Position numbers and translations under genes: made by a program. From the NCBI RefSeq assembly GCF_012271765.1, contig NZ_VRKO01000010.1:566884-630883 (forward strand): a stretch of 64,000 nt of DNA, in the 5' to 3' direction. The stretch comes from Erwinia rhapontici (GTDB lineage: Bacteria > Pseudomonadota > Gammaproteobacteria > Enterobacterales > Enterobacteriaceae). The notes beneath the pieces are model-generated. The model ran no database searches. It saw only the letters and a list, made by a program, of their open reading frames with translations, and was not told the origin of the DNA. This document shows positions 8,680 through 37,520 of this stretch, piece after piece (position 1 is the first letter of the stretch; each line of letters starts with the position of its first letter).

Positions 8680-10158
8680 TTAGTTCAGCACCCAGACGCT
8701 GACGCTGCCCGCCGGACAACGAAACACCGCGTTGCCCTGTTCGTCGCTCCCGACCTCTTCACTGATGTGCCCCAGCAGATCGTGCCAGCGCTTCCCGGCG
8801 TAGTTCTCCCCTAAATCCAGCGTTTTCTCACCGGCTTCACCGTTTGACATGATCACCACGCAGCCTGGCATCTCTTCCGTCCCACTGCGTGCAAAGGCAA
8901 TGCAGTTAGGGTGATCAAACCACTCACGTTGTTCTCCGTGGGCGTACTGCTGGCGGGCACGTACCAGGGTTTCCAGCTCGGCGATGACCGGGATCTCAAT
9001 GTCATACTGTTCGCCGTCACCGCCTTCATCTTGATAGCGCGCGCCGAACAGGTCCGGGTAGAACAGCACCGGCACGCCGTTTTCACGCAGCAGGATCAGC
9101 GCGTAGGCCAGCGGTTTGAACCAGGGTTCCACCGGGGCTTCCAGCGCTTGTAGCGGCTGTGTGTCATGGTTAGCCACAAGGGTGACTGCATGCCAGGGAT
9201 CGGCAGCCACCAGAGTACCGGTGAAGATCTGGCTGAGGTCGTACCCCGCACCCTGTTTGGACGCATTGTGGAAGTTCATTTGCAGCGGGGCGTCAAACAG
9301 CAGGCTTTTGCCATCGACCTGGTGGATGTACTGTTGCAGCTTATCCACTTCGTGCGACCAGTATTCCGCCACAATAAACAGGGGTTCGGGTGCCACTTCC
9401 TGTACGTGTTCAATCCACTCTTTATAGAACCAGGCGGGAATATGCTTCACCGCATCCAGACGAAAACCGCGGCAATGCACTTCATCCATGACCCAGCGCG
9501 CCCAGTATTTCAGCTCTTCGGTCACCGCGTGGTTACGGAAATCGATATTGGCACCCATCAGATAGTCAAAATTGCCCAGCTCGTCATCCACCTGGTCGTT
9601 CCAGCCCTCCCCGGTGTAGTCGTTAACGATTTTGAATACGCCGTTTTCATCGGGATTTTCGATATGGTCGACGCCGCTGAAGCATTTGTAGTCCCAGACG
9701 AACTGCGAGTACTGCCCGGCACGCACCGGGAAGGTAAAGCGCGTCCAGGCTTCTGCGGTGAGCACTTCCGGGTCGATCTCATCGCGGTTGTCCGGATTAA
9801 CGCGGTTGACCTGCACCTGTTCTTTTTCGTCGGCGCCCATTTTATGGTTGAGCACCACGTCGAGGATTACCCCCACGCCGTGCGATTTTAACGCTTCAAC
9901 GGCGGCCAGCAGCTGCTCTTTGTCACCGTATTTAGTGGCACGCGAGCCTTTCTGGTCAAATTCACCGAGGTCAAACAGATCGTAGCTGTCGTAGCCAACC
10001 GAATAGCCGCCGGATTCCCCTTTATAAACCGGGGGCAGCCAGACGTCAGTGATGCCCGTTTCAGCCAGCCACTGCGCACGTTCTGCCGCTTCCGGCCAGA
10101 GTTTGCCGCCTGTGGGGTAATACCAGTGAAAAAACTGCAACAGTGTGGGATTGCGCAT
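8680..10158 (-). CDS. amyA: Cytoplasmic alpha-amylase
   Basis: 492 residues (E. coli AmyA 495), GH13 family, no signal peptide, hence intracellular hydrolysis of alpha-1,4-glucans and maltodextrins. The conserved regions are visible: DVVLNHK (region I), GFRLDAVKH with the nucleophile Asp (II), FIVAEYW with the acid/base Glu (III) and VANHDTQP (IV). The start [15 protein letters not shown] matches the family N-terminus. The gene lies between yedD and fliT on the minus strand as in E. coli. A hairpin at 10222-10256 separates it from the fliDST message. Confidence 0.96.
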
Positions 10159-10221
10159 GTAGTGGGTCCATTTTCGCCAGACGGGAAAATGAAGTATGAG
10201 CGAGGCGGGGAGAAAAAGTGC

Positions 10222-30675: not shown

Positions 30676-31464
30676 ATGGGAAGACAGAAAGCAGTGATCA
30701 AAGCGCGTCGTGAAGCAAAACGTGTGCTTCGTAGCGATTCACGCAGTCATCGTCAGCGTGAAGAAGAATCGGTCACCTCGCTGGTGCAGATGGGTGGGCT
30801 GGATTCCATTGGTATGGCTCGCGATACCCGCGACCATTCACCGATTGAAGCCAGAAATGAAGCTCAGGCGCACTATCTCCACGCCATAGAAAACAAAAAG
30901 CTGATCTTTGCCACCGGTGAAGCCGGATGCGGTAAAACCTGGATCAGCGCTGCGAAAGCAGCCGAGGCCCTGATACATAAGGATGTCGACAGGATCATAG
31001 TGACTCGTCCGGTCCTTCAGGCAGATGAGGATTTGGGATTCCTGCCCGGAGATATCTCCGAGAAATTTGCCCCGTACTTCCGGCCAGTATATGACGTTCT
31101 GGTTAAACGTCTGGGATCGTCCTTTATGCAGTACTGCCTGCGCCCCGAAATAGGCAAAGTGGAAATTGCGCCTTTTGCCTATATGCGCGGTCGTACCTTC
31201 GAGAACGCGGTGGTTATTTTGGATGAGGCGCAGAATGTCACCGCAGCCCAAATGAAAATGTTCTTAACTCGCCTTGGAGAAAACGTCACGGTCATCGTTA
31301 ACGGTGATATCACCCAGTGTGACTTGCCGGCTCATGTGAAGTCTGGCCTCAGCGACGCGATGGCGCGCTTCGAGGAAGACGAGATGATTGGTGTGGTGCG
31401 TTTTGATAAAGAGGACTGTGTGCGTTCAGAGCTTTGCCAACGAGCACTGCTTGCTTACAGTTAA
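30676..31464 (+). CDS. phoH: PhoH family ATPase
   Basis: 262 residues; corresponds to the core of E. coli PhoH, starting MGRQKAVIKARREAKRVLRS. Walker A is FATGEAGCGKTWISAAKAAE, Walker B VVILDEAQNVTAAQMKMFLT, with the conserved VTRPVLQADEDLGFLPGDI between. A phosphate-starvation-inducible cytoplasmic ATP-binding protein of uncertain function, probably acting on RNA. The start has AAGGTG about 9 nt upstream. A terminator follows at 31509. Confidence 0.95.
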   Translation: MGRQKAVIKARREAKRVLRSDSRSHRQREEESVTSLVQMGGLDSIGMARDTRDHSPIEARNEAQAHYLHAIENKKLIFATGEAGCGKTWISAAKAAEALIHKDVDRIIVTRPVLQADEDLGFLPGDISEKFAPYFRPVYDVLVKRLGSSFMQYCLRPEIGKVEIAPFAYMRGRTFENAVVILDEAQNVTAAQMKMFLTRLGENVTVIVNGDITQCDLPAHVKSGLSDAMARFEEDEMIGVVRFDKEDCVRSELCQRALLAYS

Positions 31465-32278: not shown

Positions 32279-32394
32279 GGGATACCTGGCTGTTATAAGA
32301 GGTGAGAATAAAGGGGGTCAAGATAATAAATGTGGAGGATATTCGAGTAGTCCGTTTGTGCGGCAGATCACATTTATTGTTTTGACGGGGTCAT

Positions 32395-32538
32395 CCCTGA
32401 TACCTCGTCCCGGGTCGGGCATGCCCGACCCCTACGTACAGGCATTATTCTTGAATAGGGCGAGACTCGTACCTTCCCTGATGTAGGGGCGAGGCATGCC
32501 TCGTCCAGGTCGGGCATGCCCGACCCCTACGTACAGGC
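32395..32538. repeat. Palindromic repeat cluster beside tRNA-Ser copy 1
   Basis: About one and a half units of a ~95-bp repeat. The core elements are GTAGGGGCGAGGCATGCCTCG and CGGGTCGGGCATGCCCGACC followed by CCTACGTACAGGC, then a linker reading TATTCTTGAATAGGGCGAGA. Each core is a near-perfect palindrome around GCATGC. The same units appear at 36703-36923, downstream of the second tRNA copy. No coding potential. Confidence 0.75.
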
Positions 32539-32570
32539 AAAAAAAATGCCTGAACTTTCGTTCAGGCATT
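32539..32570 (-). terminator. tRNA-Ser copy 1 terminator
   Basis: On the minus strand AATGCCTGAA, loop CGAAAG, TTCAGGCATT, then an unbroken T run, starting 12 bp past the tRNA 3' end. Confidence 0.9.
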
Positions 32571-32581
32571 CTCTTAGAATA

Positions 32582-32669
32582 TGGTGGTGAGAGAGGGGTT
32601 CGAACCCTCGATACGTTGCCGTATACACACTTTCCAGGCGTGCTCCTTCAGCCACTCGGACACCTCACC
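32582..32669 (-). tRNA. tRNA-Ser(GGA), copy 1
   Basis: 88 nt including an encoded CCA (32584-32582). Acceptor GGTGAGG pairs with CTCTCACC, with an A discriminator before CCA. The anticodon loop CTGGAAA places anticodon GGA at 32635-32633. The long variable arm (ATACGGCAACGTAT) and GGTTCGAACC T-arm are typical of serine tRNA. Identical to the copy at 37151-37238 over its whole length as far as I can read. Confidence 0.96.
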
Positions 32670-32824
32670 ATATTTTACTGCCGTCACCCACAGGGGGTAA
32701 CGGGGCGGTACTATAGGCAGTCGCCGTTAATGGGTCAAGTAGTATTTTTCCCTATGGTTCTATTCGCTTAACTCATGAGCAGTCGCAAAATTCCATCATC
32801 AGCATACCCGGCGATGAAATCTCC

Positions 32825-32842
32825 CTGTCACGTGGCTGACAC
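32825..32842 (+). promoter_or_regulatory. Pho box upstream of phoA
   Basis: CTGTCACGTGGCTGACAC: two CTGTCA-like 7-mers (CTGTCAC and CTGACAC) separated by 4 nt, as in the PhoB-binding consensus. It lies 75 bp before the phoA start. Confidence 0.8.
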
Positions 32843-32916
32843 GAAAATGAAATAGTTGTATCGCAGACTGTGGCGCAGAAACATTAAGTTAAATTTATTC
32901 ATGGAGATCGCCAACA

Positions 32917-34320
32917 ATGAAACACAAAGCCTTTGCCCTTTCCCTGCTGACCTCGCTGATTTGCTCCTCTGCCGTGGCGGATATTGCCACCTGGAATCGT
33001 GCCGCACAGGGGGATATCACCCAGCCCGGTGGTGCACGCCGCCTGACCGGTGATCAGACCGAGGCAATTAAAGCCTCGTTAAACAATACCACGGCGAAAA
33101 ATGTCATTTTGCTGATCGGCGATGGCATGGGTGACTCTGAAATCACGGCAGCGCGTAACTATGCAGAAGGCGCGGGCGGTTTCTTTAAAGGTATTGATGC
33201 GCTGCCGCTGACCGGGCAGTACACCCATTACTCGCTGGATAAAAAAAGCCATAAACCCGACTACGTCACCGATTCTGCGGCTTCTGCCACCGCCTGGGCC
33301 ACCGGGGTAAAATCCTATAATGGCGCCATCGGCGTGGATGTGAACGGTAAAGATTATCCTTCACTGCTGGAACTGGCTAAAGCCGCCGGTAAAGCCACGG
33401 GTAACGTATCTACCGCCGAACTGGAAGATGCCACCCCGGCCGCGCAGATTGCCCATGTTACCTCACGTAAATGCTATGGCCCGGTGAAAACCAGCGAACT
33501 CTGTGCCACCAACGCGCTGGAAAAGGGCGGTAAAGGTTCCATCGCTGAGCAATTGCTGAATGCCCGCGCGGACGTCACTTTCGGCGGCGGTGGGAAAACC
33601 TTCAGTGAGACGGCGAAAGCGGGCGAATGGCAGGGCAAAACTCTGCAAGAGCAGGCGAAGCTGCGCGGCTATCAGCTGGTGAGCGATCTCGCGGGGATGA
33701 ACGGCCTGAGCGAAGCGGGCGACGATAAGCCGGTACTGGGGCTGTTTGCTGACGGCAATATGCCGGTGCGCTGGAAAGGGCCGAAAGCCACTTATCACGG
33801 TAACCTGGACGGGAAACCGATCACCTGTGAAGTGAATGCGGAACGTCCGGCATCAACGCCAACCCTGGCCCAGATGACCGATAAAGCCATCTCACTGCTA
33901 AGCAGCAAGCCGCAGGGCTTCTTCCTTCAGGTGGAAGGGGCATCTATTGATAAGCAGGATCATGCGGCTAATCCGTGCGGCCAGATTGGTGAAACGGTCG
34001 ATCTGGATGAAGCGGTACAAAAGGCGCTGGAATTTGCGCGTAAGGACGGCAACACACTGGTGATTGTCACCGCTGACCATGCGCACTCCAGCCAGATCAT
34101 TGCCAATGACAGCAAGGCACCGGGCCTGACGCAGACGCTGATCACTAAAGATGGCAGCCCGATGACCATCAGCTACGGCAATTCGGAAGAAGATTCTCAG
34201 GGCCACACCGGCACGCAACTGCGCATTGCGGCATATGGTCCTCATGCGGCGAATGTGGTCGGTCTGACCGATCAAACCGATCTGTTCTATACCATCAAGG
34301 CTGCTCTGGCGATCAAGTAA
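32917..34320 (+). CDS. phoA: Alkaline phosphatase
   Basis: 467 residues. Signal peptide [21 protein letters not shown] for periplasmic export. The first metal ligand is in [20 protein letters not shown], the nucleophile Ser in [16 protein letters not shown], a further metal site in [20 protein letters not shown] and [10 protein letters not shown], and the final His in [13 protein letters not shown]. It releases phosphate from monoesters in the periplasm; the upstream Pho box predicts PhoB control. In E. coli phoA is elsewhere on the chromosome; here it lies between two tRNA-Ser repeat blocks. Confidence 0.96.
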
Positions 34321-34367
34321 CGATAAGGTGGGCGACGAACGGTGCGTCGTCGCCATCCTGATGCTGG

Positions 34368-35360
34368 TTAACGTGACTGCTGGCAGATGTGGAGTACCTC
34401 TGAAAAAGGGATGCACACAGAGCGACTCTTCTCTGAACCTGTGGCGTGTTGCAGGATTTTCTTTATAAAAGGCCGGATTTGCTTCACGAACAATCTGGCC
34501 TCTTTATCATCAAACAGATAACCCATGACCTTGTCTTCCTGAACGCACAACGCCAGATGGCCCGCACTGCCATCGGAATAGGTGAAATTGATATCCTGCA
34601 GGGTACGCGTAAAAATGCCCGCGCACTCCATCTTCCTCCCTTCCTCGTAATACAGGTCTATCAGCAAGGCATTCGTTGGCAAATCTGGCCAGCCTTCATA
34701 CAGGGGCGGTAACACAGTGATATCCGTTTGTGGCTGACAGGTCCGTTTTTTCTGCTCTTCCTGGAAGGCCTTTTCACCGTCCTGCGACATCGCCTCATTA
34801 TAAATCACCAGGTAGATTTCCCTGTCTTCAGCATCGGTGGGGCGCAGGCGTTCAAATGCGTGAATCGGTGCCGATGCGGTTCGGCTGGCTCGCCGCTGTG
34901 ACCATCGCAGCTGGGCCAGTTGCAGGTCTTTATCGCTAATGTCGCGTGATGCTTCCCACTGCGCGGCAAACCATTGATGGATAGCTGCGATCTGCCCGGG
35001 GTCCTCGGTTAACAGTCCGGCTTCATCCCACCAGGACTGCTCGCTGCCTTCAAGATTTAATCCGTTAGCGGAAAAATTGGCCGAACCGACCAGCGCCTGT
35101 TTCGCCCCGGCGATGACTTTGGCATGCAGTTTGTCCGACTGGCGTATTGTCACGCCCGGCTTATCACGCAGCGCTTTGATCACCTGGGGATTGGTGGCGC
35201 CGCTGTCTACATTACAAATCAGCCTGGCGCGCTGACCGACGCGTGGGCAGATCATCGTGTCTGCCCCTTTTCCCCAAAATGCCACTGCCGCAAGCAGTTC
35301 TTCTTCGTCTGCTGCCAGCGATGTAACCGCCTGTTGATAATCTGAAGATGTTAAAAACAT
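34368..35360 (-). CDS. Phospholipase D-like domain protein
   Basis: 330 residues, no signal peptide or membrane helix. The N-terminal third has one PLD-type motif, KLHAKVIAGAKQALVGSANFS: His-x-Lys and the downstream GSANFS are present, but the Asp of a classic HKD is not at its usual place. No second HKD is visible, so it would act as a dimer like Nuc/BfiI-type nucleases, or be non-catalytic. The C-terminal half (after ~150; contains WPDLPTNALLIDLYYEEGRK) is unfamiliar. ATG 35360 has AGAGGGAA upstream. It is convergent with phoA and divergent from the LtrA gene; a role in nucleic-acid cleavage is a guess. Confidence 0.75.
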   Translation of the reverse strand: MFLTSSDYQQAVTSLAADEEELLAAVAFWGKGADTMICPRVGQRARLICNVDSGATNPQVIKALRDKPGVTIRQSDKLHAKVIAGAKQALVGSANFSANGLNLEGSEQSWWDEAGLLTEDPGQIAAIHQWFAAQWEASRDISDKDLQLAQLRWSQRRASRTASAPIHAFERLRPTDAEDREIYLVIYNEAMSQDGEKAFQEEQKKRTCQPQTDITVLPPLYEGWPDLPTNALLIDLYYEEGRKMECAGIFTRTLQDINFTYSDGSAGHLALCVQEDKVMGYLFDDKEARLFVKQIRPFIKKILQHATGSEKSRSVCIPFSEVLHICQQSR

Positions 35361-35473
35361 CGTATTCCCTCTTTATCATGCCAATAAGGCGCTGCCCGAC
35401 ATCAATAAAACATGTTCCTGTTTCGGGCGTCTCGCTATTATCAATGTAATGCCCCCTTTTCAGGAACATTTCC

Positions 35474-36628
35474 ATGGCGCTAACTCTGCTTCGCGTACGT
35501 GATGGCCACGGCGCAACGGTGTCATTTTCTGAACTTCTTTTCGACCTGATTTACGTTTTCGCGGTCACTCAACTTTCCCATTATCTTCTGCATCATTTGA
35601 CGCTCACTGGCGCACTGGAAACCCTGCTGCTGTGGTTTGCCGTCTGGCTCGCCTGGCAGTATACCGCGTGGGTCACCAACTGGTTCGATCCTGAAACCCG
35701 ACAAATTCGCCTGCTGCTGTTTGGTGTGATGCTGTTGGGCCTGTTTGCCTCTTCAGCACTGCCGCAGGCATTCGGTGAACGCGGCTGGATATTTGCACTG
35801 TTTTACGTTGCGATGCAGGTTGGGCGCAGCGCTGTCACATTATGGTTACTGCCCGCGGGGCATTTGCTGCGGCGTAATTTCCAGCGCATCCTCGGCTGGA
35901 TGTGTATTTCTGGGGTGTTCTGGCTGTGGGGTGGCATTGCAGAAGGGCCGGAACGCCTGATCCTGTGGGGGATAGCGGTGGCCTGCACCTACTTCTCACC
36001 GATGTTCGGTTTCCCGCTGCCGGGCCTGGGCCGTTCAGACAGCAGCAGTGAATGGACCATAGAAGGGCACCATCTGGCGGAGCGTTGCCAGCTGTTTGTT
36101 ATTGTCGCACTGGGTGAAACCATTCTGATTACCGGTGCAACGCTGAGTGAAACCGACGTGTGGGATGCGCCGATTATTATTGCCTCGCTGGTGGCTTTTA
36201 TCGGCAGCCTGGCAATGTGGTGGGTCTATTTCGATACCAGCAGCAAGGCAGGCAGTCATGCTATACAACATGCGGATAATCCGGGACAGATGGGTGCCTG
36301 CTTCCATTATGTTCATGTGGTGCTGGTCGGCGCGATTATTGTCTGCGCCGTAGCCAATGAGCTGGTGATCGCCCATCCTGATGGACATATCGACATGGCC
36401 GCCGCCGCCGTTTTGCTGCTCGGCCCGGCGGTCTATCTGCTGGCCAATGCGATTTATAAACTGATGGTCTACGGCCGGTTTCCGCTGTCGCATATTGTCG
36501 GGCTGGTGGCGCTGGCCGGATTAATTCCTGTGGTGTTTATCACCGACAGGTTGATGGTGAATGGTCTCACCACGGTGATTATGATCGTGGTCGCCGGATG
36601 GGAGAGCGTTTCACGGCGGTCGGGTTAG
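35474..36628 (+). CDS. Low temperature requirement protein A (LtrA) family membrane protein
   Basis: 384 residues, about ten hydrophobic helices. The N-terminal ATVSFSELLFDLIYVFAVTQ with LSHYLLHHLT, and HHLAERCQLFVIVALGETIL, are the characteristic LtrA family (pfam06772) segments. The family is named from a Listeria mutant unable to grow in the cold; its molecular function is unknown. AGGA lies ~9 nt before ATG 35474. Divergent from the PLD-like gene with a 113-bp spacer. It lies inside the block bounded by the tRNA-Ser repeats. Confidence 0.88.
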   Translation: MALTLLRVRDGHGATVSFSELLFDLIYVFAVTQLSHYLLHHLTLTGALETLLLWFAVWLAWQYTAWVTNWFDPETRQIRLLLFGVMLLGLFASSALPQAFGERGWIFALFYVAMQVGRSAVTLWLLPAGHLLRRNFQRILGWMCISGVFWLWGGIAEGPERLILWGIAVACTYFSPMFGFPLPGLGRSDSSSEWTIEGHHLAERCQLFVIVALGETILITGATLSETDVWDAPIIIASLVAFIGSLAMWWVYFDTSSKAGSHAIQHADNPGQMGACFHYVHVVLVGAIIVCAVANELVIAHPDGHIDMAAAAVLLLGPAVYLLANAIYKLMVYGRFPLSHIVGLVALAGLIPVVFITDRLMVNGLTTVIMIVVAGWESVSRRSG

Positions 36629-36702
36629 TGGCATGGGCGTGGTCTGCAAATCATGTCGCTCGTTTGCATGGAAGAGCACATTTATTGTTTTGACGGGATC
36701 AT

Positions 36703-36923
36703 TCCTGATGCCTTGTTGCGGGTCTGGCATGCCCGACCCCTACGTACAGGCATTATTCTTGATTAGGGTGAGACTCGTACCCTCTCTGATGTAGGGGCGA
36801 GGCATGCTTCGTCCCGGGTCGGGCATGCCCGACCCCTACGTACAGGCATTATTCTTGAATAGGGCGAGACTCGTACCCTCCCTGATGTAGGGGCGAGGCA
36901 TGCCTCGCCCGGGTCGGACAGGC
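36703..36923. repeat. Palindromic repeat cluster beside tRNA-Ser copy 2
   Basis: Nearly three units of the ~95-bp repeat also seen at 32395-32538: GCATGCC-centred palindromes with CCCTACGTACAGGC and the ATTCTTGAATAGGGCGAGAC linker. The first unit is more degenerate. The stretch before it (36660-36702) is similar to 32352-32394, so the similarity extends beyond the palindromes. No gene. Confidence 0.75.
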
Positions 36924-36954
36924 AAAAAAATGCCTGAACTTTCGTTCAGGCATT
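36924..36954 (-). terminator. Extra tRNA-type terminator
   Basis: The same AATGCCTGAA/TTCAGGCATT hairpin with a T run on the minus strand as behind both tRNA genes. Here it follows only a 17-nt tRNA 3' fragment. Confidence 0.8.
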
Positions 36955-36965
36955 CTCTTAGAATA

Positions 36966-36982
36966 TGGTGGTGAGAGAGGGG
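36966..36982 (-). pseudogene. 17-nt remnant of the tRNA-Ser 3' end
   Basis: The plus-strand sequence TGGTGGTGAGAGAGGGG is identical to the last 17 nt (including CCA) of the tRNA-Ser genes and keeps the same distance to its own terminator. The rest of the tRNA is replaced by unrelated DNA. Confidence 0.8.
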
Positions 36983-37107
36983 GATCACTCGCGCCATCCC
37001 TGGCGCTCGCCCTGCGGGCAGCCTGCGGCTGTGCAAAACGGCTATCCTGCCGTTTTGTCGAACCCTGGCGAGGGTTCTTCACTCCCTCTCTCCACGGAAT
37101 GACAGGC
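36983..37107 (-). other. Hairpin-rich spacer in the tRNA-Ser tail repeat
   Basis: 125 bp between the tRNA fragment and the terminator of tRNA copy 2. It contains at least three perfect inverted repeats: GCGCCA/TGGCGC (36991-37006), CAAAACGG/CCGTTTTG (37034-37057) and GAACCCT/AGGGTTC (37060-37077). No ORF of interest. It would be transcribed only if RNA polymerase reads through the terminator at 37108. Confidence 0.5.
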
Positions 37108-37139
37108 AAAAAAAATGCCTGAACTTTCGCTCAGGCATT
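37108..37139 (-). terminator. tRNA-Ser copy 2 terminator
   Basis: Minus-strand hairpin AATGCCTGA / TCAGGCATT followed by a T run. It has one base change in the stem relative to copy 1. Confidence 0.88.
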
Positions 37140-37150
37140 CTCTTAGAATA

Positions 37151-37238
37151 TGGTGGTGAGAGAGGGGTTCGAACCCTCGATACGTTGCCGTATACACACT
37201 TTCCAGGCGTGCTCCTTCAGCCACTCGGACACCTCACC
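37151..37238 (-). tRNA. tRNA-Ser(GGA), copy 2
   Basis: 88 nt, identical in sequence to copy 1 (exact offset 4569 bp), anticodon GGA at 37204-37202, encoded CCA. It lies next to ghrA, the position of serX in E. coli, so this is probably the ancestral site. The 280 bp to ghrA carry no gene. Confidence 0.96.
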
Positions 37239-37520
37239 ATATTGTTGTCACAACCGGGTTGCTGACGGGCGCTAATGTAGGGAAAACTGCGGTTGCGGTC
37301 AACACTGATTCCCGAAATATGCGTGCGTTTAGTCAGTTTTAAATCACTTTGCTGCTTAAAACGGCAGTGGGAAGACTTCATCCGCTGTTAAGCGGGTTAC
37401 GCGCGGATCATGGCCTGATAATTTCACACTGTGCAGGCCACCGGACGGACGCCCGGCTAAAGTTTCACTTGCCAGCCGTCGCATTTTCCACGAGCTTAAG
37501 CAAAAAACAGGAGAAAAAAC

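Follow-up and report, generated by a model that had tools for sequence, protein, structure and literature searches.

Are the two identical tRNA-Ser(GGA) genes that bracket phoA in Erwinia rhapontici a product of the arrival of the block between them, or are they older than that block? This question was raised by a stretch of 64,000 nucleotides (referred to as the window; assembly GCF_012271765.1, contig NZ_VRKO01000010.1, positions 566,884–630,883), which belongs to contig 6 of a 5.24-Mb genome in 19 contigs. An initial annotation, made from the sequence alone, had proposed that the block, containing phoA, a PLD-like gene and an ltrA-like gene, was gained at the tRNA locus or created by its duplication. 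The comparisons reported here make it very probable that the tRNA pair is an old one, corresponding to serW and serX of Escherichia coli, with conversion between the copies and changing cargo between them.

According to this explanation, the block would be the form taken in the Erwinia group by a chromosomal interval of old origin, with the order phoH, tRNA-Ser(A), variable genes, tRNA-Ser(C) and ghrA. Judging from sequence patterns, the tRNA bodies and 3′ flanks would be kept alike within genomes by gene conversion between the direct repeats, and genes would be gained and lost between A and C over time. phoA would have moved beside copy A in an ancestor of the Erwinia/Pantoea/Mixta/Izhakiella group, ltrA would have become a neighbour of phoA in some genomes of the Erwinia group, and the PLD-like gene would have come to lie between phoA and ltrA in the present genome.

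Promoter classes of the two tRNA genes

As read in the initial annotation, ARAGORN and a direct-repeat scan found two identical tRNA-Ser(GGA) genes in the same orientation, 4569 bp apart. They are the only tRNA genes called by ARAGORN in the 64-kb window, both are on the minus strand, and they are identical across 88 nt. The copy on the phoH side is designated copy A and the copy on the ghrA side copy C.

32582..32669, minus strand: tRNA-Ser(GGA) copy A, phoH side, with an A-class flank (ARAGORN; Rfam RF00005, 49.8 bits)
32670..32740, minus strand: A-class 5′ flank, promoter-like, TTGACC ... TATAGT ... CGCCCCGTT (sequence reading; serW of E. coli K-12 has the same layout)
37151..37238, minus strand: tRNA-Ser(GGA) copy C, ghrA side, with a C-class flank (ARAGORN); ghrA adjoins it as it adjoins serX
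37239..37310, minus strand: C-class 5′ flank, promoter-like, TTGACC ... TACATT AGCGCCCGTC (sequence reading)

Compared in successive 15-nt steps across 75 nt, the two 5′ flanks in the window were only 40–60% alike, while the bodies were 100% and the next 45 nt 93–100% alike; the last few bases before the gene (AATAT) are the shared part of the otherwise differing 5′ flanks. By hand-made patterns, two classes of 5′ flank were defined, an A class (TTGACC, spacer, CTATAGTA.CGCCCCGT) and a C class (TTGAC, spacer, TACATTAGCGCCCGT or TACATTAGCGCCCGTC). In E. coli K-12, serW was found to carry the A form and serX a C form (TAAATTAGCGCCCGT), although the bodies of the two genes are identical. The statement in the initial annotation that E. 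coli has a single such tRNA next to ghrA was thus right as to serX, located between ycdU and ghrA, but overlooked serW, which is identical to it and lies between clpA and infA. The E. coli pair resembles the present one in its identical bodies, in its two promoter types and in the position of serX by ghrA with RtT repeats after it. It differs in that serW lies beside infA, approximately 172 kb from serX, compared to 4569 bp here, and in that the interval between serW and serX does not contain phoA but pga, dgcT, an IS3 and ycdU. A CRISPR-DR4 repeat match was observed between clpA and serW in E. coli K-12 (L170, 2254–2281).

In the family of the window, a 17-nt A-class core with at most one mismatch was present in 81 of 149 genomes, compared to one for the backward control. 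An A-class tRNA-Ser(GGA) was present in 29 of the 30 loci fetched via this core, which also matches some sites with a TT ending outside the loci checked. One mismatch was allowed because exact matching is too strict (copy A of the window itself fails the exact pattern); with exact patterns, the A class was found in 10 and the C class in 5 of 247 genomes of the order, all within the family of the window.

Both classes were found together in 46 loci from 45 genomes, G020 being represented twice (genomes of relatives are coded G and loci L). The genus sample comprises 37 genomes, Erwinia in the broad sense, in which G020 is the closest relative (94% identity in GhrA, 95% in PhoA). The count of 46 omits nine short loci of genomes already counted (L172, L174, L176, L179, L182, L190, L192, L193, and L194), as well as L034 (G026), in which both tRNAs are present and the C copy carries the tag '?'. 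The order of the two classes was reversed in none of the 46 loci, and both tRNAs always lie opposite to the direction of ghrA. Where ghrA is in view (44 of the two-class loci), C is always the copy nearer to it, and where phoH is in view (34 loci), it always lies on the side of A.

A and C thus share with the E. coli genes a tRNA-Ser(GGA) of near-identical body and, by the hand-made patterns, a class-specific 5′ flank, A being like serW and C like serX. As to neighbours, C adjoins ghrA as serX does, and A adjoins phoH here and in other genera, but the A copy adjoins clpA or infA in E. coli and in at least 3 of the 30 A-class loci. Very probably, as part of the explanation given above, A and C are orthologues of serW and serX, that is, old paralogues each of which would have retained its own promoter type. 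The pair is considered old because its separate promoter classes are shared with serW and serX and its order is unreversed throughout the two-class loci, and we infer that it predates the split of Erwinia and Escherichia.

A recent duplication of the tRNA locus, in which one of the two copies would have arisen along with the phoA block in an ancestor of Erwinia, would fit the identical bodies, the stretch of 142 nt that is 99% alike and the 3′ flank and palindromes common to both copies. However, the 5′ flanks are unlike each other and resemble those of serW and serX, respectively, and 34 of the 46 two-class loci show the two-class order without phoA between A and C. The promoter classes contradict such a duplication unless they are convergent, and it is regarded as highly improbable. 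Given the serW- and serX-like promoter classes and the same order in all 46 loci, a common origin of tRNA pair and block, as proposed in the initial annotation, is not supported.

Repeat blocks and the RtT-like unit after copy C

The direct-repeat scan detected two repeat families. The first, of 142 nt and 99% identity (32533–32674 and 37102–37243, spacing 4569 bp), comprises tRNA and terminator; the second, of 157 nt and 89% identity (32353–32509 and 36661–36817), corresponds to the downstream palindrome block.

32533..32581, minus strand: 3′ flank of copy A with hairpin terminator, within the 142-nt, 99% direct repeat
37102..37150, minus strand: 3′ flank of copy C with terminator, within the 142-nt direct repeat
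32353..32532, no strand: palindromic repeat block downstream of copy A (direct-repeat scan)
36661..36913, no strand: palindromic repeat block downstream of copy C, two units (direct-repeat scan)
36924..37104, minus strand: RtT-like repeat unit, composed of a partial tRNA 3′ end with terminator (36924–36982) and an RtT match (36966–37104) (direct-repeat scan; RF00391)

The similar repeat blocks described in the initial annotation were recovered in so far as terminator and downstream palindromes are common to both copies; block C is, however, not a plain copy of block A, and the 5′ flanks differ. In addition, block C contains a second palindrome unit (36757–36913) and a 59-nt partial copy of the tRNA 3′ end and terminator (36924–36982), 185 bp from the whole copy and part of the RtT-like unit. 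The palindromes recur in the genome: a 491-bp block C query gave 80 matches, nearly all of 23–58 bp and at palindromes.

Like the RtT RNA repeats (RF00391), the unit lies after the tRNA and holds a tRNA 3′ end, in the form of the 59-nt partial copy, together with an RtT-like core. Unlike them, it is a single unit with 35.1 bits (E 4.1e-4 in a 5.3-kb search), which is under the gathering score of 45. At the gathering threshold, RtT was found in only one of six sources, after E. coli serX (two units at 46.3 bits), and none was found in the window, L016, L026, L034, or L170. In L026, the tRNA's own 3′ end is accompanied by three more at 183-bp steps. The extra repeat of block C has probably, but not with certainty, accompanied this tRNA for a long time.

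The partial tRNA 3′ end also bears on whether the block is an integrase-type island, in which case phoA, the PLD-like gene and ltrA would have integrated into tRNA-Ser and the partial 3′ end at 36966–36982 would be an attachment remnant. In O157, serW and serX are described as sites of genomic islands (OI-43/OI-48) with P4-type integrases and 14-bp tRNA 3′ repeats (PMC3064760), and the partial 3′ end downstream of copy C would fit such an event. As in these islands, the same tRNA genes border variable DNA; unlike in the islands as described there, two whole tRNAs are present, and no integrase was found by Pfam among the phoA, PLD-like and LtrA products (overlapping small ORFs were not scanned). 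Furthermore, the borders are two complete tRNAs with their own promoter types, not one whole tRNA and a 3′-end repeat, and the partial copy is inside block C, on the C side, where it can be read as part of an RtT unit such as those that follow serX in E. coli. The G+C content of the interval is like that of the flanks, and the divergence of PhoA follows that of GhrA (see below). Such an island is therefore considered very unlikely. Nor was a composite transposon recognized, as the borders are tRNA blocks, with no flanking insertion sequence with transposase and no transposase among the three genes between them.

Likeness of the two copies within genomes

Homogenization was tested in 43 genomes with both copies by comparing the likeness of A and C within a genome to the likeness of each copy to its orthologue in the nearest relative. 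The nearest relative was chosen by GhrA and YcdY (PhoH if neither was available), and relatives more than 98.5% alike were excluded. For the 5′ flanks, likeness was 0.662 within genomes and 0.838 to the orthologues, and the within-genome value was higher in none of the 43 genomes. For the 3′ flanks the corresponding values were 0.866 and 0.813, the within-genome value being higher in 32 genomes and lower in 10, with one tie (sign p 0.0009), and for the bodies it was higher in 18 and lower in 7, with 18 ties (p 0.043). A and C bodies were identical in 35 of the 43 genomes, with 12 body sequences overall, and when the five body positions that vary most were taken singly, the two copies agreed in 38–41 of the 43 genomes, compared to 19–25 expected from column make-up (relatedness not removed). 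These last counts were made on a fixed 88-letter cut of the body, which shifts the columns for longer genes (three A and two C copies by the column counts). The simplest reading of this within-genome likeness of bodies and 3′ flanks would be gene conversion between the direct repeats.

The variable interval between copies A and C

The distance between A and C ranges from 172 to 8277 bp across the 46 two-class loci and is approximately 17.7 kb in G018. The variability foreseen in the initial annotation was confirmed, as a phoA orthologue is absent from 12 of the 37 genus genomes and the genes between the tRNAs differ by species. In a Pfam scan of 20 proteins from A–C intervals and neighbouring stretches, five proteins lacked a match at 1e-5. 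Matches included a fimbrial usher, a chaperone and an adhesin; an MFS transporter, a pirin, two LysR regulators, an isochorismatase and a chloride channel; a glycosyl hydrolase, a molybdopterin oxidoreductase, an outer-membrane efflux protein, a ShlB-type secretion protein and a polysaccharide biosynthesis protein; and one integrase-core (rve) protein. An ORF of approximately 490 aa between C and ghrA formed a cluster of 17 ORFs among 51 loci, of which the scanned member (L012) was of POT type. This gene was not found between C and ghrA in the window (37239–37520 compared to L169 and L012), and the best match in the genome is located elsewhere and only 29% identical.

In G009 (L019), a lone C-class tRNA stands between phoH and ghrA and phoA is absent, a single tRNA-Ser without a phoA block being what the initial annotation had suggested looking for. 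In G017 (L037), two tandem A-class copies and one C copy were found, all three at a 564-bp period. Head-to-tail tRNA pairs joined with an N were observed in L024 (G029; 9599–9771 and 10043–10215); these probably arose as an artefact of assembly, given that only single copies are present in the similar G028 (L040). The contigs of G001, G013, G021 and G030 terminate in or near the region, which agrees with an interruption of the assemblies by repeats.

In principle, recombination between the repeats could remove the interval or double it, and the loss or amplification envisaged in the initial annotation appears plausible from the sequence. A more far-reaching proposal is that the interval owes its variability to RecA-dependent exchange between the tRNA repeats, by which it would be swapped, deleted or amplified as a matter of routine. 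The 142-nt direct repeat at 99% and the range of interval lengths agree with this, as do the single C-class tRNA of G009, which is the product expected of an A × C deletion, and the tandem copies of G017. On the other hand, G016 lacks phoA and copy A and yet has retained ltrA, which A × C recombination does not give, and 7 of the 12 phoA-less genomes have retained both tRNAs, so that phoA was lost there by other routes. Routine exchange of this kind is judged unlikely, although it deserves some credit. There is only a slim chance that the locus is a standing exchange site in which conversion would keep serW and serX as long direct repeats, the interval would be open to RecA-driven loss, duplication and cargo replacement throughout the family, and phoA dosage in Erwinia-group genomes would be adjustable by reversible tandem duplication.

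phoA, the PLD-like gene and ltrA

The gene order in the window is efeO, efeB, phoH, a nitroreductase gene, tRNA A, phoA, the PLD-like gene, ltrA, tRNA C, ghrA, ycdX and ycdY, with names given by similarity or by order. ORF positions and Pfam agreed with the initial annotation on the three genes between the tRNAs:

32917..34320, plus strand: phoA, alkaline phosphatase, 467 aa (Pfam PF00245, E 2.8e-123; NCBIfam NF007810 equivalog, 833 bits, cut-off 540)
34368..35360, minus strand: PLD-like protein, 330 aa (Pfam PLDc_2, 24.8 bits, cut-off 27)
35474..36628, plus strand: LtrA-family membrane protein, 384 aa (Pfam PF06772, E 2.7e-101)

A plasmid origin of the whole block was considered and rejected: megablast of 32340–37300 against plasmids gave 49 records, the best covering 9% of the query. 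An Rfam Ysr251 match was seen in antisense within phoH (31266–31459), and likewise in E. coli K-12 and L034. ghrA was found to be broken or mostly lost in L027 (G035) and L152 (G002).

Among the 37 genus genomes, A, phoA and C were found on a single contig in 17, and the region was spread over contigs in three (G001, G012, and G036). In four Winslowiella-type genomes (G034, G033, G005, and G010; L156–L159), phoA is found with C and ghrA, and phoH and A lie elsewhere, approximately 0.83 Mb away in G034, as if a rearrangement had split the interval between A and phoA. G025 contains phoH, A and phoA, and no C was found there. Weak PhoA matches in G022, G028 and G029 (31–34% identity) were not scored as phoA.

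In addition, 80 named PhoA loci were examined. A tRNA-Ser(GGA) was present within the stretch in 23 of them, upstream of phoA in 21 and on the opposite side in two; none was found in the remaining 57, some of the stretches being short. The loci with phoA and the tRNA are labelled Erwinia, Winslowiella, Pantoea, Mixta, Izhakiella, one Enterobacteriaceae bacterium and two Enterobacter, the latter two records being possibly misnamed; phoA beside the tRNA was not found among the Escherichia, Klebsiella, Serratia and Dickeya loci in this set. Fourteen genomes with phoA and the tRNA were searched whole, of which 12 contained one near-identical tRNA copy and two, both Mixta, contained two. GhrA was found in 12 of the 14 and lies near a tRNA copy in the two Mixta only. 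Bracketing of phoA by both copies was found in the genus of the window only; in the Pantoea-type genomes searched, copy A alone lies beside phoA. An old fixed order shared by all relatives, phoA included, was named in the initial annotation as evidence that would speak against its reading. Half of this was found: the two-tRNA order is old, but phoA beside the tRNAs or between them was observed only in loci of Erwinia, Winslowiella, Pantoea, Mixta and Izhakiella type and in three otherwise labelled records.

PhoA identity correlated with GhrA identity (Spearman 0.88, n = 20), as for vertical descent. The comparison covered 20 of the 28 genomes with a PhoA match, omitting the own genome, the three with weak matches, the split G012, and G002, G019 and G031, which lack a full ghrA.

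ltrA directly follows phoA, with a gap of approximately 63–67 bp, in five relatives (G023, G008, G027, G007, and G036); in the window the gap is 1.15 kb and is occupied by the PLD-like gene. The latter was found in this genome only among the 37 and is likely a recent insertion into the interval. In G020, no PLD gene was found in the genome and no ltrA within its interval (a genome-wide ltrA search was not made). An HxK...GSxN stretch in the PLD-like protein, read by eye, is presumably the motif of the family. Matches to this protein occurred in 12 plasmid records, six of them Pseudomonas, with 27–35% identity in the ten matches listed, and no phage match was found. It was not recognized as a member of a known defence system, the scores for DpdK (23.9 of 100 bits) and DrmC (19.9 of 133 bits) being far under the NCBIfam cut-offs.

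Discussion

Several points weigh against the explanation of an old serW/serX pair with conversion and changing cargo. Several tRNAs fall outside the strict form of the hand-made class patterns and carry the tag '?'. In six genomes (L202–L207) an A-class tRNA was found alone, beside ghrA; these may have lost C or may reflect an older single-copy state that could be ancestral in the wider family. The single near-identical copy in 12 of the 14 Pantoea-, Izhakiella-, Mixta- and Erwinia-type genomes searched whole means that not every member of the group in which phoA lies by copy A has retained the tRNA pair. With respect to conversion, the 3′ flank signal was opposite in 10 of the 43 genomes and the body signal was marginal. 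A shuffle control was significant for the 5′ flanks too (0.662 compared to 0.643, p 0.0002); this control was not relied on because conversion is not separable from relatedness there. Besides, selection on the tRNA and terminator could hold the copies alike without conversion. The placing of the move of phoA rests on the 80 named loci covered out of 442.

Identical serine tRNA copies within one genome are also described for Pseudomonas fluorescens SBW25 (PMC7661048), where serTGA was affected by tandem duplication. Unlike the recent, large laboratory duplications described there, the pair studied here has separate promoter types. The present arrangement was not found described in the titles and abstract starts of open-licence literature on serW/serX, RtT, tRNA evolution and Erwinia tRNA loci.

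The locus thus consists of two known tRNA genes with a variable stretch between them. Supply of serine tRNA is the presumed role of the pair, phoA is, judging from its family, an ordinary alkaline phosphatase, and no function of the bracketing itself is required by the evidence. The results suggest that serW and serX were once located in one neighbourhood. They further indicate that identical tRNA genes need not mean recent duplication, as the promoters reveal an old pair whose bodies would be kept alike in each genome, which is likely a countable case of concerted evolution of bacterial tRNA genes. An old serW/serX pair bracketing changing cargo would explain why the genes in this interval differ from species to species.

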